DNA of 40,860 bases. It comes from a virus. The DNA is taken from positions 1 to 40,860 of the IMG/VR virus record IMGVR_UViG_3300028840_000022; one strand, written 5' to 3'. The position numbers and the translations under genes were made by a program. This document shows positions 1,304 through 20,850 of the stretch, piece by piece. Position 1 is the first letter of the stretch. The number at the start of each line of letters is the position of its first letter. Under the pieces are notes generated by a model, which was not told the DNA's origin, searched no databases, and was given only the letters and a program-made list of their open reading frames with translations.

Positions 1304-4300
1304 TGGTATCCCTTCTTACTCTCAATGATCAGATAATCAATGAGCAAATCCTCAAGGAATCTCTCATTGGTCCTCAGATCAGTAAACCTTACAACTCTAG
1401 GAGCCAAGTCGAAAGGACTAAGGCTCAAGAGATTTCTATCGCTACAGATTTACCTGTAGACCAGATAGAAGCTGAACGTGAGGTAGGTGACGATAGCTCA
1501 GAGGTTATAGCTAAGAACGAAAGTCTCAACTTTGACTATGCCTTAGCTATCAATCAAGCCTATCAGGATGGTCTACCACCTGAGACTATAGCAGCTATCA
1601 TTGAGGAACGTAAGGAAAAGGGTGAAGACATGTCTCTTAGTGAGTACATGTTGGTTCAACACCTTATGCTCTCCGATGGTGACATAAATCCCTATGCAGC
1701 TAGAACCCTGACTAACATGGAGACATGGAACAGGTTGATGCAAGAGGCCATCGAAGAGAATGACCAGAGTGGTATAGGTAAAGTACTTAGTTTCTTCGAT
1801 GTAAATATCCTCAGAGAGATTACTATCGGTGCATTTGAGAATGTAACCCTTAGGTCTAACCGTGAAGGTGATACTATCAGGGCTGCATTTAACCAAATGA
1901 AACCTGCTGAGTTCGAGAAGTGGGCTTTAGAGTACATAGAGGAACGTAAAGAGGAGGGTATCTTTAGTTCAGATAGTATCTGGAACTTGTACAAGACAGC
2001 TAATGATGCAACCTACCTAGGGGATGACCCTATGTCTGGTGTCTATGCGTTGTTTGGTGTTGCTGACATAGCTACGCTTGGGTCAACAAGACTCGTAACA
2101 GGACCAGCCTCTGCCTTGGCTAGACAAACAGGCAAGGTTTTAGGTATAACCAAAGCTAAAAGACCTGTTGATGTGATAGCTACACTAGGTGATGAGGTAC
2201 AGGCAGCAAGTGTATCAGCAAGGTTAGTGGATGATGTAGGCGCACAGACAGACGAGATCAATGCTGGACGTACACTGCCAGAAGAACTAGACCCTGTTTC
2301 TGGGCCAAATGCTCGTCCATCAAGTGCCACAGTAAGAGATCACACAGTAAAGACTAGGCTCACAGAAGAGTTAGAGTTAGCTAACCGAAGAGGTACCTTT
2401 GGTGAGTACGTACCTAGAGCCAGTATCGACGCCTTAGCCCTTAGAACAGCAGAGAGTATAGCTAAGAAAACAAACAACGTAGCTCTTACTCGTTCTGTCA
2501 AACCTATGTCTGTAATTGATGAAGGCTCAGATGACTACAAGATCGTAGTTCGTATGGGTAAAGACAAGACAGGTGGTTTTTTCAGACGTAAGATGGACGC
2601 AGAGGCCATAGCTAAGAACGATCCTACACTAAGAGTAGTCAAAAGGGAAGAGGGTCGTGGCTGGTACCTAGAGACAGAGAAGAGACTTGACATCTCTGAC
2701 CTACCTGAGGCTATGCAGATAGTACAGAAGTCTGACTTTATCAGAGATGCTATCAATAAAGTCTTTGGTGCAGCTACAGTTCGCCTAGGTGACAAGCTAG
2801 GTGCCAAGTTCTTACAGGCTGAGTCTGGTCAGGCTCTCATAGGTGACCTCGTAAAGCCATACCAAAAGAAAATAAACAAGGTTAAAGGCAAAGAACTAGA
2901 AAACCTGTCAGATTTCATGACGCAGCTACGTGATGGTGAGCTATCACATATGCGTCAGGCTCCTTCTGTAGCTAGCTTTGAGGCCATGTACAAAACTATG
3001 TACGGGTCTACCCCCAGCAAAGCTACTACGGAAGGATATGAGGCTCTTATTGACATCCTAGATACAACGTGGCAGATTAAATCTTCTGAGAGATTGAAGA
3101 GAGCCGTGGCTGCTGATGGTGTCTTCCTTGAGATGACCGATGAGTTTGGAAATGTAGCCTATAAGGTAGCCCAGAGCCAGATAGACGATGAGTTTATTCT
3201 TGATCTAGCTACACTAAGGCCAATCCGTAAGGATAAACTCAAGGGTGACCAGATAGTCTACAAGGTTCCTGAGACATTCATGGACCATCTATACTTTGTC
3301 AACCCTAAGAGTGTCAGAGTTTTAGAACGAGTAGACATTATGCCGTACAATATCGGTGGTCCTCGTACTAACTCTGAGTTCCGTTGGTTCTTGGGTACTG
3401 TTAAGGAGCAAAGGCTCGCTTCAGGTAAGTCTGTGTCTGTGGGTTTCAAGACTCTACTAGGTTCTTTCGGTAAAGACCAGATAGAACTGGCTGTATCTCA
3501 GCTAAATAACATAAGTCGTTCAGTTAAGAAACTCCTAGATCAGAACGGTATTGATGACATCGCATTACTTAGTCTAAGCAAAGCTGAGTATGATGAGCTA
3601 GGTAATGTTATCAGGGCCAACAATACATGGAATAAACACGTCACTGACCTAGAAGATTTGCAGAGGCTAGCCCAAACCCACAAGTTCAACTTTACAGAAC
3701 AATTCGTAGCTAAAGCTAGGGACGAAAAGATTTCTATAGGTGAAGCTGGTGGTGATCCTACTCGCTTTGGTTTGTCAGTAGGTGAAGACGTAAGTGTCAA
3801 GATGAATAACCTTGGCATGAAACGAGGTGACACACCTCTCATTGAGTTTGGCGGTAAGTCAGCTACGAATGCTAATCCAATATCAGCTATCGCTGACCAG
3901 TTTGGTACTGAAGCTTTTGGTTATGCTAATCGTGCAGCCTCACAGAGTGCTTTAGTTGGCTGGAATAAACTAGCAGAAGCTAACCAAGGACTAATCAGGA
4001 ATTGGGATAGAGTTAGTGCTCTCCCTAAGAATGACTTCTTGGGTAGACTTTTGGAAGCTGAAGTTACCAAGACAGGTAAGTTTAACGATGTAGCTGCACA
4101 ACTACGTGAGACACAGGATGTCATCAAGCGTAGGCTCAATCAACCTACTTGGCTGTCAGATAAATGGGAATCCTTCACAAGGTCAGCTACTGAATACGTC
4201 TTCGAAAAGACAGGGTTCAAGTGGGACTTAGCTGCTACTGACCCCTCATCTCAACTACTGAAAGTTGGCTTCTACTCTAAGTTTGGTTTCTTCAATCCAG

Positions 4301-12161: not shown

Positions 12162-14060
12162 TTATGTTAAGTCTACGATTTCACACACATCACCAGAGCA
12201 AGCCATCGTTTGCATAGCTACAGTGTTGTCTTCCTTCTCATACTCAGACAGCTTATTCCAATCAATCTTATCTGGCATGAGAGATAATAGCATATTATAG
12301 TCACTCTTGCCAATCTCTTGATAAGGTGCTTGCTGATAAGTATGTTCATTGTATGGCAAAAATGACACACCTGACATCTCATCGAAGTGTTTATGCACGA
12401 AGGCTCCTACCTCAAACCACTCATCAGGTCTGACATTGATAGTGACAGATGGTTTGTGTTCACACCAGTGTCTCTGATAGGTGAGCCAAGTCTCTAGTTG
12501 TTCTATCGCTGTCAGGTCAGAGGTAACAACGGCTCCATCTGGTGACTTGATAGGGAACGAGAAGACAGTAGTGTTAGTTGGCTTCATTACATCTGGTTCG
12601 TTAGGGATACCCATGTCCTTCATGAAGGAGGTAAGGGGGTCTTTGTTATCGGCTCTAACGGTTCTAATGTAATAATTCGAATACCGTGCGTGTATTCCTG
12701 AGGCACTGTCAACGAGTTGTGAGACTGTTCCTGATGGTTTAACACACGTAATAGCAACACTAGGGTTAACGTCAAGCTTACTGCTGACGTCAATATTAGT
12801 ATCAACTGCAACCTGTCTAAGGTGCGCAAGAGTTTTTGGTAGACCATGATTCTTACTCGTTAGTAGAGGGTTATCCATTATCCCTGTGAGTGACACACCC
12901 AACAGGCGTTCTTCTTCTGTATTTCGCTGCCACACCTTTCGCAAGTATGGGAAGTGGGTGTAGACAGATTGAATTGTTCCCAGAACTGTTGCAATACGTA
13001 CCTTTCGCTCAAGGTCTTCGATAGTATCTGTAGCCCTGACCACAACTTCAGTGAGATTACAGAACTGATATGGACGTAGGATAATCTCTGAGCAAGGATT
13101 AGTTCCGAAGTCATAGTCAGGATCACGTCTGCCATACTTCTCAGCTTGTTTCTTAGACGCTTCACGATTGAATACTCCTCGTTCTCCACTGCCTGATTCT
13201 ACTAAGGCCATCCATTCTCTCATGAATGAGACAGCATCTGGTTTGTCTGTATAGCTCACACTGTTGTTAGCCAAGGCTCTCTGTGGGTTGTTCTCCCACC
13301 AAGCACCTGACTTAGCGTGACGCATACGGTCATCTGATAGGTTAGACAAAGAGATCATTGCTGATCTGCGTACACCACCCACAACTACGATCTCACCTAC
13401 CTTACACATGATGTCATGACACTCAATGCTAGACAGCTTGCGTCCTTGAGCATCCTTGAATGTCTTGATAGTAAAGTTGAAGAGATCAACGAGAGGTGCA
13501 GGGCCACTGGCTCTACCCCCGAATGTCTTTAGTCTAGCACCAGCAGGTCTGACTTTAGATATATCCCACTGAGGGATTTCACCAGCCCAGAGGAGAGCCA
13601 ACAATTGTCTGAACGCCTTAGCCCATCCCTCCTTGCTGTCCTTCACAACGATAGTGGTATCGCTTTGGAAGAGAGTAGGGATTTCAGGGAGCTTACTGAC
13701 GTACTGCCTCTCGACACTAAAGCCAACACCAGTACCACAGAGAAGGATGAACATAGCCTCATCGAAGGACTTAGGGTCATCTACGGGTAGGTAGCTACAG
13801 TTGTACATACAGGTGTTGTCTCTCTTAGAGGCTGGACCTGCTGTCATCATTGACCGCATAGATGGCATGACCTCTAGGCTTAGGATAGCATCCCGTATTG
13901 ACTTTGTGTATGAGTCCTCCCCTAGTTTAGGGTAGACAATGTTCTCCATGTATCGTTCTACTGTGTCTTCCCATGACTCACGGCCCTTACCATCGAAGTA
14001 CTTTGCGTACCTTGATTTGTGTATGAACTCTTGGTAATCTGTTGGTAAATAGTTGTTCAT
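12162..14060 (-). CDS. nrdJ: Adenosylcobalamin-dependent (class II, monomeric) ribonucleoside-triphosphate reductase
   Basis: A 632-residue protein, slightly shorter than Lactobacillus leichmannii RTPR. All key residues can be placed: Cys88 in NCSYLP (reducible pair partner), the NPCSE motif with Asn321, Cys323 (radical) and Glu325, Cys334 in QFCNL (second pair Cys, 11 residues on as in RTPR), and the C-terminal CX4C pair Cys621/Cys626 that accepts electrons from thioredoxin. CGTGVGFSVE and PSGTVSQLVDSASGIH are also typical. It converts NTPs to dNTPs with B12 as cofactor, so it works without O2 limits but needs host cobalamin. It overlaps mazG by 4 nt (ATGA) and belongs to the dNTP supply block with ThyX. 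Confidence 0.95.
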   Translation of the reverse strand: MNNYLPTDYQEFIHKSRYAKYFDGKGRESWEDTVERYMENIVYPKLGEDSYTKSIRDAILSLEVMPSMRSMMTAGPASKRDNTCMYNCSYLPVDDPKSFDEAMFILLCGTGVGFSVERQYVSKLPEIPTLFQSDTTIVVKDSKEGWAKAFRQLLALLWAGEIPQWDISKVRPAGARLKTFGGRASGPAPLVDLFNFTIKTFKDAQGRKLSSIECHDIMCKVGEIVVVGGVRRSAMISLSNLSDDRMRHAKSGAWWENNPQRALANNSVSYTDKPDAVSFMREWMALVESGSGERGVFNREASKKQAEKYGRRDPDYDFGTNPCSEIILRPYQFCNLTEVVVRATDTIEDLERKVRIATVLGTIQSVYTHFPYLRKVWQRNTEEERLLGVSLTGIMDNPLLTSKNHGLPKTLAHLRQVAVDTNIDVSSKLDVNPSVAITCVKPSGTVSQLVDSASGIHARYSNYYIRTVRADNKDPLTSFMKDMGIPNEPDVMKPTNTTVFSFPIKSPDGAVVTSDLTAIEQLETWLTYQRHWCEHKPSVTINVRPDEWFEVGAFVHKHFDEMSGVSFLPYNEHTYQQAPYQEIGKSDYNMLLSLMPDKIDWNKLSEYEKEDNTVAMQTMACSGDVCEIVDLT

Positions 14061-17256: not shown

Positions 17257-18288
17257 TCAATGTGTATCTCTCCAAGATTTACCTATGTCAGTTGACCCAG
17301 CTAGAGGACAGACCATGTTGAAGTTCTTACCTGCATCAACGATAGCTTGACGTTGTATCTCACCTAGTAGTTCAGCATCCTTGTATGGTCCTGTCACTTC
17401 TGTCTGCCACTCATCGTGAGGCCAAGTGACTAGCTTGAAGTTAATCCATTGACGTTTAGCTTTGTATGTCCAGTCAAGTGCTGCGTGTTTCATGATCACA
17501 GCCTCACCATTCTGTAGCATACCTGCCAAGGTCTTGTGCTCAGATGGTACTGGCACCTTGCGTCCATCCAACCCAATGAAGTACCCTCGCTTTGCTATGT
17601 GAGGTATGATCTTCTTCTTGAGGTTAGCTAACCCTTGGATAGACTCCATGAAGTTATCGACTGCTTGTGTTGCCTCCTTGTTTGATACGTTAAGAATCTG
17701 ACTGATCTTGCCTGTACCTGCACCTAGCAGAAAGGCATAGATGAAAGTCTTAGCCATGTCTCTTGTTACATGTGACATACCTAGAGCCTTACGGTTGAGG
17801 TTGTGTATGTCAGTCTCGTCCTCCTTCTTACCTGACACGATAGCGTTAACATACTCCTCTGAGTTCATCAGGTGAGCTAGCACCCGTAGCTGTATGCCCT
17901 CAGCGTCTGTGCCTACCAGCCAGCTATCCTCAGGCACGGTCCATAGTGCTCTGAACTGACCGTCATACTTAGCCTTCACCTCCTCTACTGCTGACTTAGG
18001 TGTGCCATGAAACTCAGCAGGGATGTTAGCTTGGTTGGGTGCTCTGTGAGCCATGCGTCCTGTCCATGCACCAATGCCCATGAACTGCCCATGAATACGA
18101 GAATCGTCACCACAGTGGCCCAGCCACTCCACCAGTGAGGAACGTCTACCCTCAAGGGTCAACCACTCAGTTAAACGTTTGGCTCCTGTAGGGGCTGTCT
18201 CAGGCAGTGTGCTAAGGTTAGTCTCAGATAGAGTCCACCCGTACTTAGCAAACTTAGAGCCTCTATCTTCGGTTCTGTTCTCTGTCAT
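17257..18288 (-). CDS. DNA polymerase A, polymerase domain (second frame of a split or frameshifted gene)
   Basis: The polymerase domain of a T7 gp5-like family A enzyme, 343 residues from ATG 18288. Motif A is TDAEGIQLRVLAHL (Asp128), motif B is RDMAKTFIYAFLLGAG (Arg176, Lys180, Tyr184) and motif C is HDE (291-293). The residue equivalent to E. coli 762 is Tyr184, as in T7. The next conserved Tyr (E. coli 766, T7 530) is Leu188. The frame is +1 relative to the exonuclease part just upstream. ATG 18288 has AGGA ten bases upstream, so separate translation is possible. An ATG at 18333 would only add an out-of-frame reading of conserved exonuclease-part DNA. Confidence 0.9.
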   Translation of the reverse strand: MTENRTEDRGSKFAKYGWTLSETNLSTLPETAPTGAKRLTEWLTLEGRRSSLVEWLGHCGDDSRIHGQFMGIGAWTGRMAHRAPNQANIPAEFHGTPKSAVEEVKAKYDGQFRALWTVPEDSWLVGTDAEGIQLRVLAHLMNSEEYVNAIVSGKKEDETDIHNLNRKALGMSHVTRDMAKTFIYAFLLGAGTGKISQILNVSNKEATQAVDNFMESIQGLANLKKKIIPHIAKRGYFIGLDGRKVPVPSEHKTLAGMLQNGEAVIMKHAALDWTYKAKRQWINFKLVTWPHDEWQTEVTGPYKDAELLGEIQRQAIVDAGKNFNMVCPLAGSTDIGKSWRDTH

Positions 18289-19111
18289 ACTCAATGTGTC
18301 CTTTGGTTTTGTCCACTGGTTTCCAACCTGCATCCCATAGTCTTTCGATACGCATCTTAGGTGACGATGGTTTGAACTTGACCCAATCCATACAGATAAG
18401 CTGGGCTGGGAATGTATCGTAAACCTTTGTCAACTCCCCATCTGACTTTTTCCTGTACAAAATACGATTGACTTCTTCTAGTTGGGGTGGGAAGTCCTCT
18501 TGGAAACCATCCTCTAGTTCTGCCATACGCAGTTCAATCTCATCTAGCAGATGCTCTGCCTTCTCCTTGTCGAAGAAGAAACCATTGTTGTGCATCTCCT
18601 CACATAGAATCTGAATGTCGTGCTCCACCTTGATAGCTTCTTGTTGTGTCTGATCCTTGAGTACAGGTAGGAACCTCTGGTATAACTTGACAGTGACAGC
18701 TACGTCCTGATGACAGTAGTCCACCATCTCCTGAGAGAACTTAGAGAAGTCATTGAAGTCCATCTTGAAGTCAGACAGACGCTTACCCCAAGCCTTCAGT
18801 GAGTGCCCACCTTGCAGGTTGTAGTCAATGAAGCGAGATACAACAAGAGTATCCAGTACTTTACTAGGGTCAATCCTCTTGCCTAGCAGTCTGTTAATCA
18901 CAGGTACATCAAAAGCAATGCCATTGTGAAACACAAAGAGATCAACAGTATCACAGAAATTAGCAAAGTCTATACCCTCTTCTATTATTTTGTCTGGATT
19001 GTGAAACTCGTAGGTCTCACCTGTGTTGACATCCTGACCACAGATAACCCAGATGCGACTAGCATCTAGAGTGTCTGTCTCAATGTCCATAGCTACAACT
19101 TTAAGTGTCAT
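18263..19111 (-). CDS. DNA polymerase A, 3'-5' exonuclease domain (first frame of a split or frameshifted gene)
   Basis: A 282-residue protein with an intact DnaQ-like proofreading site: Exo I MDIETD (Asp9, Glu11), Exo II HNGIAFD (Asn63, Asp68), Exo III YCHQD (Tyr132, Asp136). It continues past the exonuclease into the start of the polymerase (PSSPKMRIERLWDAGWKP, matching the NPSS...L..AGW region of T7 gp5) and stops with TAG at 18263. The polymerase domain continues in the +1 frame, overlapping by 26 nt counted from ATG 18288. Joined, the two give about 620 residues, a normal size for SIO1-type polymerases. No thioredoxin-binding insert is evident. Confidence 0.9.
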   Translation of the reverse strand: MTLKVVAMDIETDTLDASRIWVICGQDVNTGETYEFHNPDKIIEEGIDFANFCDTVDLFVFHNGIAFDVPVINRLLGKRIDPSKVLDTLVVSRFIDYNLQGGHSLKAWGKRLSDFKMDFNDFSKFSQEMVDYCHQDVAVTVKLYQRFLPVLKDQTQQEAIKVEHDIQILCEEMHNNGFFFDKEKAEHLLDEIELRMAELEDGFQEDFPPQLEEVNRILYRKKSDGELTKVYDTFPAQLICMDWVKFKPSSPKMRIERLWDAGWKPVDKTKGHIEYDREQNRR

Positions 19112-19298
19112 CTTTAGAGAACCCTATTTGTATTACAGTCAAAGGCCACAGCAGTGACCAGAATAATTGTCTTCGTTTGTCTATCTGATCGTACTTATCC
19201 AGTAGATGAAAGACAGCACCCACATGCAGGTAGTGCAGAGCTACACCAAAGGCATAGATGACACCACACAGGGTAGGCCATAGGCTAAAGTAATCCAT
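19101..19298 (-). CDS. Small membrane protein (65 aa)
   Basis: Two hydrophobic segments (about 6-26 and 44-60) flank a polar DKYDQIDKRRQ loop, suggesting a hairpin inner-membrane protein. It lies between primase-helicase and the polymerase exonuclease gene and overlaps both (14 and 11 nt), so it is translationally coupled to the replication genes. No family is recognised. Confidence 0.6.
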   Translation of the reverse strand: MDYFSLWPTLCGVIYAFGVALHYLHVGAVFHLLDKYDQIDKRRQLFWSLLWPLTVIQIGFSKDDT

Positions 19299-20850
19299 AC
19301 TTCTCTTTCATTGTGAACGAAGCTGTGTCAAACGAAAGCTGACCTGCGTAGCCTGTCGGACCTACTGGTCTGTTCTTGGTGACCAGAAGCTTCGTTGTGT
19401 TACGTTCATCTGCATCCTCTGCCATCTTGTTTCGTTGCAGTTCGACAACAACGGATGCTCTCTGTTCTATCATGCGGCAGTACTTGACAGCCCCATCATC
19501 ATTGGTGTGACCAATAGTTATGATACCTACGTTCAACTCAGCAGCTAGCTTGGATAGCCTGACAGCTAGGTCAGCTAGGAATTGCTCTTTGCTTTCTTCT
19601 CCTGACATGTTGGCTGCTATGTCCTGTATAGGTTCAAAGAATATGTACTGCACACCACATGCCTGAGAAAGATACCTTATATGATTAAGGATTTCAAGAG
19701 GGTCATCCTCGTCATTGAGAAAGAATTGGTATAGCCTTTCATCTTTAGTCAGTTCAGTGATAGCCTCTTGTACTTGACGGTCCAGTCCTTTCTCTTGGAT
19801 CAAGTCCTTTCGTGTTACGTTCTCTCCTAGTTTGTATGACACCAGACCTAGGATGCTGCGTAGCTTTGTCTCTTCCATGTGCCAAGCTGCAATGCGTATC
19901 TCTGGGTACTTACTCAAGAGTCTGTACTCTAGGTAGCGCATGAACTCAGTCTTACCTATGCCTGTCTGTGCTTTGAACAGAGTGAAGTGTCCTTGCATCA
20001 GGCCCATGCACAGGTCATCGAAGTCTTGTACACCTGTCTCTACGTAGACGTGTTCCTCTGATGTACTGTACAGCTTTAGGAACTGGTCAGGTGTATTAAT
20101 GATATTCTCAGGTGTGTACTTCTGTGCGTTGAACCAAGCGTGGTAGTAGGAATCTCGTTCACCTGCCTGAAGAAACTCATTGGCATCCTTGTACTTGTCG
20201 TGCTTCATCCTGTATACTTTATTAGGGAAGAGGTTAGCTATCTTCTGAGCTACTGCATTCCCTGCGTCATCATGTTCTATTGACAGGACTATCTTCTCGA
20301 ATGACTTGAGCCATTCAGTTACGTTCTCCCATAGGCGTCTGCTAGGTGAGGCTGAAGGCAATGACACGAAGGCTGAGTTATATCTCTGGTGCTTGCACAT
20401 TTGGTATGCTGACATAGCATCTAGTTCACCCTCTGTGATCGTGACTATCTTACCTGACCCAGCATTCCATAGGTTCATACCAAATAGTTCATCTGACTTG
20501 AGACCCTTAGCTGAGAAATCCTTAGGGAAGTATCGTGTCTTGACACCACCTGAGGGGTAGACGTACTGCTGGTACTTCTCCTCACCGTCACTGTTGAGGT
20601 ATGTGTAGCACCCGTAGAACTCCATTGTCTCCTTGGATATGCCTCGCATACCTCTGTACACTGCTGTCATCTTCTCAAGGTGTACTACTTGAGGTGCTTG
20701 TAATTGCATTTCCTCTTCTCCACTCTCCCAATACTCACAACCAAAGCAGTAGCCGTGACCATCTGAGTACCTAGCTAGGTTATCTTTTGAGAGACACTTA
20801 GGGCATGGCTCATGTCCTATGAAGTGGCTGTCTGCTTTGTGGTCTTTCAT
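19285..20850 (-). CDS. DNA primase-helicase, T7 gp4-like
   Basis: A 521-residue bifunctional replisome protein. The N-terminal zinc ribbon is CPKC (16-19) and CFGC (35-38). The TOPRIM primase has EGELDA (from 140) and IEHDDAG (191-197), where the first acidic residue of the usual DxD is Glu. The RecA/DnaB-type helicase has Walker A AQTGIGKT (294-301) and a C-terminal IITIGHTNDDGAVKYC...VVELQRNK region with the sensor His and arginine-finger area. T7 gp4 has 566 residues. It unwinds DNA at the fork and makes RNA primers for the polymerase encoded downstream. Confidence 0.95.
   Translation of the reverse strand: MKDHKADSHFIGHEPCPKCLSKDNLARYSDGHGYCFGCEYWESGEEEMQLQAPQVVHLEKMTAVYRGMRGISKETMEFYGCYTYLNSDGEEKYQQYVYPSGGVKTRYFPKDFSAKGLKSDELFGMNLWNAGSGKIVTITEGELDAMSAYQMCKHQRYNSAFVSLPSASPSRRLWENVTEWLKSFEKIVLSIEHDDAGNAVAQKIANLFPNKVYRMKHDKYKDANEFLQAGERDSYYHAWFNAQKYTPENIINTPDQFLKLYSTSEEHVYVETGVQDFDDLCMGLMQGHFTLFKAQTGIGKTEFMRYLEYRLLSKYPEIRIAAWHMEETKLRSILGLVSYKLGENVTRKDLIQEKGLDRQVQEAITELTKDERLYQFFLNDEDDPLEILNHIRYLSQACGVQYIFFEPIQDIAANMSGEESKEQFLADLAVRLSKLAAELNVGIITIGHTNDDGAVKYCRMIEQRASVVVELQRNKMAEDADERNTTKLLVTKNRPVGPTGYAGQLSFDTASFTMKEKYGLL

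Follow-up and report, generated by a model that had tools for sequence, protein, structure and literature searches.

A T7-type DNA polymerase encoded by two overlapping genes in a clade of Veravirus-like phages

Two overlapping genes at the polymerase locus

The window analysed here is a viral DNA of 40,860 nt, taken over its full length (IMG/VR record IMGVR_UViG_3300028840_000022). Its DNA polymerase is distributed over two ORFs that overlap by 26 nt, and the features of the locus are as follows.

19285..20850 (-): primase-helicase gene (DnaB_C, Toprim), belonging to the same replication gene cluster and lying upstream
18263..19111 (-): exonuclease subunit gene, 282 aa, with PF01612, phrog_17 and phrog_403 matches
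19073-19087 (-): Exo I, in the exonuclease ORF
18908-18928 (-): Exo II, in the exonuclease ORF
18704-18718 (-): Exo III, in the exonuclease ORF
18299..18304 (-): AAAGGA, Shine-Dalgarno-like, ending 10 nt before ATG 18288
18286..18288 (-): ATG, putative start of the polymerase subunit; in insert-bearing relatives, the start codon of an endonuclease ORF
18263..18288 (-): gene overlap, 26 nt; in relatives, the insertion site of endonuclease genes
17257..18288 (-): polymerase subunit gene, 343 aa from ATG 18288, beginning MTENRTEDRGSKFAKYGW..., with a PF00476 match
17884-17907 (-): motif A, in the polymerase ORF
17716-17763 (-): motif B, in the polymerase ORF
17407-17418 (-): motif C, in the polymerase ORF

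The exonuclease ORF comprises a 3'-5' exonuclease domain (DNA_pol_A_exo1 in a Pfam scan, E 1e-7) and an N-terminal thumb-side region, up to ...KPVDKTKGHIEYDREQNRR. The polymerase ORF lies in the +1 frame relative to it, matches DNA_pol_A (E 7e-34) and contains the remainder of the thumb, the palm and the fingers. It is open upstream of 18288 to an ATG at 18333, giving a longest form of 17257-18333 (-), 358 aa. These positions and frames bear out a preliminary description of the sequence, which had placed the Exo motifs in one ORF and motifs A-C in a +1-frame ORF, and had pointed to ATG 18288, overlapping the first ORF, with an AGGA-type sequence ten bases upstream. The same description had the break falling in a conserved stretch; it actually lies on the palm's thumb side, in a linker of variable length that directly follows a conserved AGWxPxxKTKGH.

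Motifs A, B and C, together with a 3'-5' exonuclease domain carrying Exo I-III, place the pair in family A (T7-type). A single polypeptide, usual for family A and not strictly defining, is not what this group encodes: 138 of 139 split-clade haplotypes have two ORFs. We modelled the protein as a read-through single chain of 617 aa, with a four-letter word at the stop, together with 84 relatives, fused and split. The model (pLDDT 88.9, pTM 0.84) has the T7 gp5 fold, its nearest solved structure being T7 DNA polymerase (2ajq_A; Z 33.3, 2.6 A over 540 residues). The break, at residue 282/283, falls in the model between one helix that ends at 278 and another that starts at 281; the AGWxPxxKTKGH stretch precedes it, and the last thumb-side helix and the palm follow. 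We take the region around the break to be thumb from general knowledge of family A polymerases. On this model, subunit 1 would carry some of the thumb along with the exonuclease, and subunit 2 everything else.

Two further observations concern the window itself. At about 18414-18436 (-), its exonuclease ORF is 42 nt shorter, in frame and between GTT repeats, than in the compared close relatives L006-L010, L012, L013 and L014, which have 14 residues more; this is either a private deletion or an assembly artefact. At 12162-14060 (-) lies a B12-dependent ribonucleotide reductase of 632 aa, typical of cobaviruses.

Inheritance of the split

The nearest cultured relatives found by distant blastn are CRP-5 (MK613347) and ICBM2 (MF431616), Veravirus phages of the Zobellviridae/Cobavirinae. 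In GenBank, both have the same two overlapping genes as the window, in the same place, and in ICBM2 these are named 'DNA polymerase, 3'-5' exonuclease domain' and 'DNA polymerase A, polymerase domain'. Their polymerase subunits are 79% (CRP-5) and 73% (ICBM2) identical to that of the window. The genome of the window is Veravirus-like, its capsid protein being 67% identical to that of CRP-5 and ICBM2. CRP-4, CRP-9 and CRP-13 have a one-gene polymerase.

Relatives were gathered by scans of IMG/VR and classified by script, the clade being defined as the distinct haplotypes with at least 70% identity to the window's polymerase. This clade consists of ocean phages of Roseobacter-group bacteria. Its 139 haplotypes divide into 97 with overlapping genes, 41 with an insertion between the genes and one fused (L031); 65 fused haplotypes fall outside the split clade. 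In a maximum-likelihood tree of 141 polymerases, the fused or split state requires two changes, a single split and the re-fusion of L031, with a support for the split clade of 89 (SH-aLRT), not above 95. The split thus occurred once, in the ancestor of the Veravirus-like clade. The preliminary description had proposed looking for the same frame break in related contigs and had allowed that all relatives might be unbroken; the outcome was the opposite, since the close relatives are split.

Because the same arrangement is present in cultured phages and in every split-type relative, we conclude that the split is real and inherited, and not a sequencing error. A one-base sequencing or assembly error in this contig had been one of the original readings, as removal of one base would fuse the frames. 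It has a negligible probability in our estimation: the same +1 split is found in two independent cultured genomes and in many distinct haplotypes, several with an identical junction, and about 138 split haplotypes have either the +1 shift or an insert at the joint.

Both halves are under strong purifying selection. The median dN/dS across relatives is about 0.10 for the exonuclease and about 0.06 for the polymerase, with no difference between insert-bearing and insert-free phages. Motifs A-C are intact in 138 of 138 split relatives. Exo I is found in all 125 relatives, and the patterns used detect Exo II in 113 and Exo III in 118 of the 125; among the loci that the patterns miss, five were read, and in these Exo II and III are present as variants. 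A recently broken, decaying pseudogene, with a host enzyme taking over the role, could draw on the private 14-aa in-frame deletion in the window's exonuclease ORF. However, the clade-wide persistence of the genes, their low dN/dS and their intact catalytic motifs make such decay most improbable.

A single contig departs from this pattern. L031 (750-2684) encodes a fused 645-aa polymerase nested among the split ones, and has HHRLYFRYGRPLPFTSPKI in place of the joint. It is an apparent natural re-fusion, by which the fused form would also be viable, or else an assembly artefact.

The junction and the genes inserted there

We examined 86 distinct overlapping junctions. In all 86, an in-frame ATG lies 26-53 nt ahead of the stop codon of the exonuclease and is preceded by an SD-like sequence, which is AAGGA at 10 nt in 63 and AGG at 11-12 nt in 23. 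The last codon and stop (TAA or TAG) of the exonuclease differ by clade (AGATAG, GGCTAA, CGTTAA, TACTAA, AAGTAA and others), and no conserved slippery site at the 0-frame stop is common to the 86 junctions. In nearly all relatives, the N-terminus of the polymerase is M and a short linker of variable length, followed by RGxKFA(K/R)YGW. Among fused outgroups, the KTKGH stretch is kept in some, and 26 of 39 have a +1-frame ATG within 110 nt; a start codon was therefore readily available before the split. No EYDRE-type ATG was seen in the fused outgroups whose joints were inspected.

In 41 haplotypes, an insert of 0.3-1 kb separates the two genes and mostly encodes a free-standing endonuclease; the window itself has no insert. 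Of the insert ORFs, 39 begin within the exonuclease gene and use that same +1 frame, usually starting at the ATG otherwise used by the polymerase. In most of the insert loci checked, a fresh polymerase start follows at ATGGATGAACGAGG or at a close variant of it, with an 8-nt overlap with the insert stop. At least five unrelated nuclease groups occur at this one site.

HNH_3/phrog_99: L010
HNH PF01844: L055, L096
Endonuclease VII-like PF02945/phrog_1035/phrog_2633: L051, L066, L122, L128, L137
T5orf172/MUG113, GIY-YIG-like: L038
HNH-like phrog_36777 protein: L068

The insert of L012 (two ORFs, L012:3231-3569 and 3574-3804) has no Pfam or PHROG family match and no recognisable nuclease; it clusters with that of L010 only via a common N-terminal segment, which is the part lying over the exonuclease gene.

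Insert-bearing haplotypes occur in scattered places on the tree, a distribution that needs about 9 changes. The closest relatives of the window include both insert-free (L008, L014) and insert-bearing (L010-L012) loci, and L008 and L012 are near-identical genomes without and with the insert: on either side of it, 47-50 positions agree in each 50-base block. This pattern is as expected of free-standing homing endonucleases, and the joint is best read as a putative homing-endonuclease hotspot whose inserted genes would cleave there and be mobile. The first split may have been either a one-base indel or an endonuclease insertion that was later lost. A separate observation is that L128 (2996-3995) has tandem endonuclease-like ORFs at the joint, the first endonuclease VII-like and the second matching HNH and recombinase domains, which looks as though this joint had been invaded twice.

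Two polypeptides, competing explanations and known systems

Two polypeptides, not FRAMESHIFTING, are better supported than frameshifting or error, because the ATG and SD sequence are kept while the stop context varies and because the inserts separate the halves. We rate the inserts as the strongest evidence, since no frameshift can join such halves.

One alternative, which we consider quite unlikely, is that a programmed +1 frameshift where the exonuclease ORF ends gives a fused polymerase of roughly 617 aa. The +1 frame is found in 97 of 97 overlapping haplotypes, and read-through gives a good T7-like model of 617 aa. However, a constant frame is also expected from common descent and from selection on both reading frames; the junctions share no slippery site and instead keep the ATG and SD; and in the 41 haplotypes where a foreign gene of 0.3-1 kb comes between the halves, no shift of frame can connect them. 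Frameshifting, which the preliminary description had offered as one option, thus fails as a general mechanism; a minor or low-level frameshift product may arise in the overlapping forms.

A group I intron or split intein that joins the halves in insert-bearing phages would likewise yield a single-chain enzyme. Phage polymerase genes often carry such introns. The authors of MEP401 proposed this for a similar split (PMC10580990). Nevertheless, no Rfam match was found in 15 sources, and no Hint/intein domain is among the matches of the Pfam scans. The insert ORFs take up the space between the end of the exonuclease gene and the ATG of the polymerase and leave little room for an intron, and most relatives, as well as the window, are without any insert. 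We give this explanation a very small probability. On the evidence above, sequencing error, programmed frameshifting as a general mechanism, group I intron, intein and pseudogene were all rejected.

We propose instead that the replicative T7-type (family A) DNA polymerase would be made as two polypeptides, one with the proofreading exonuclease plus the initial portion of the thumb, the other with the remaining thumb, the palm and the fingers. This agrees with the option of a true split into two subunits in the preliminary description, which the cultured phages and 138 of 139 haplotypes support. The second subunit would be translated from its own ATG (18288), served by a separate Shine-Dalgarno sequence that lies in the 3'-terminal part of the exonuclease gene, probably with translational coupling to that gene. 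The two chains would then join without a covalent link into an active enzyme resembling T7 gp5. We infer this non-covalent assembly because of the single-chain model and because of the precedent of phage 25 gp43A/43B. After the one split in the ancestor of the Veravirus-like clade, the joint would have received free-standing homing endonuclease genes, which would take over the ATG so that the polymerase restarts at a second one. We know of no overlapping genes at Aeromonas gene 43 in which a start codon is exchanged between endonuclease and polymerase. Taken as a whole, the explanation of a two-polypeptide, non-covalent T7-type polymerase, split once and with a joint that serves as a docking site for homing endonucleases, is in our judgement highly probable.

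A broader interpretation is more speculative, and we regard it as rather doubtful. A T7-type replicative polymerase may have become fixed as a clade-wide heterodimer whose proofreading subunit, being separately translated, could be dosed or detached, and the split may be kept as a harmless landing site in an essential gene for exchangeable homing endonucleases.

If the proposed two-polypeptide polymerase is true, it would be, to our knowledge, the first clade-wide two-subunit T7-type DNA polymerase. The system offers natural fused relatives, an apparent re-fusion and many alleles with and without an endonuclease at one joint, and CRP-5 and ICBM2 are available in culture with their hosts. It is thus a ready system for studying how a polymerase tolerates a break, the separate dosing of proofreading, and whether endonucleases create split genes or settle there. 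For annotation practice, such a gene should not be mended or discarded as a frameshift.

The initial suggestion that a two-subunit T7-type polymerase would be new was too strong, as two polymerase genes are already annotated in the ICBM2 GenBank record and phages with a split polymerase are known. A literature search of incomplete coverage found no paper discussing the Veravirus split, nor did term searches in PMC6918029 and PMC6775973 find such a discussion. T7 DNA polymerase (gp5), the closest solved fold, has the same exonuclease, thumb, palm and fingers and differs in being a single chain. Split phage polymerases with endonucleases are already known from gene 43 of Aeromonas phages 25 and 44RR (43A/43B), a replicative phage polymerase split as here, with the seg43 endonuclease at the joint in phage 25 (PMC2988022). 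In phage 25, gp43A and gp43B purify together and have activity (PMC2988022). The enzyme is, however, family B and T4-like, and few phages are described. In phage Aeh1, a free-standing HNH endonuclease splits a gene (nrdA-a/mobE/nrdA-b) and the split enzyme is fully functional (PMC2988022); that case differs in concerning a ribonucleotide reductase, not a polymerase, and a single insertion.

A split family A polymerase is also already known, from the Methylophilales (OM43) phages MEP401 and MEP402, marine Zobellviridae with two ORFs and a small ORF between (PMC10580990). Their polymerase is interrupted about 85 residues later than here, immediately ahead of motif A, and therefore by an independent event; no recognisable endonuclease is reported there. 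In MEP401 (L368, OP830906; 6111-8221), the ORF between the halves is 77 aa long and the downstream gene begins with motif A.
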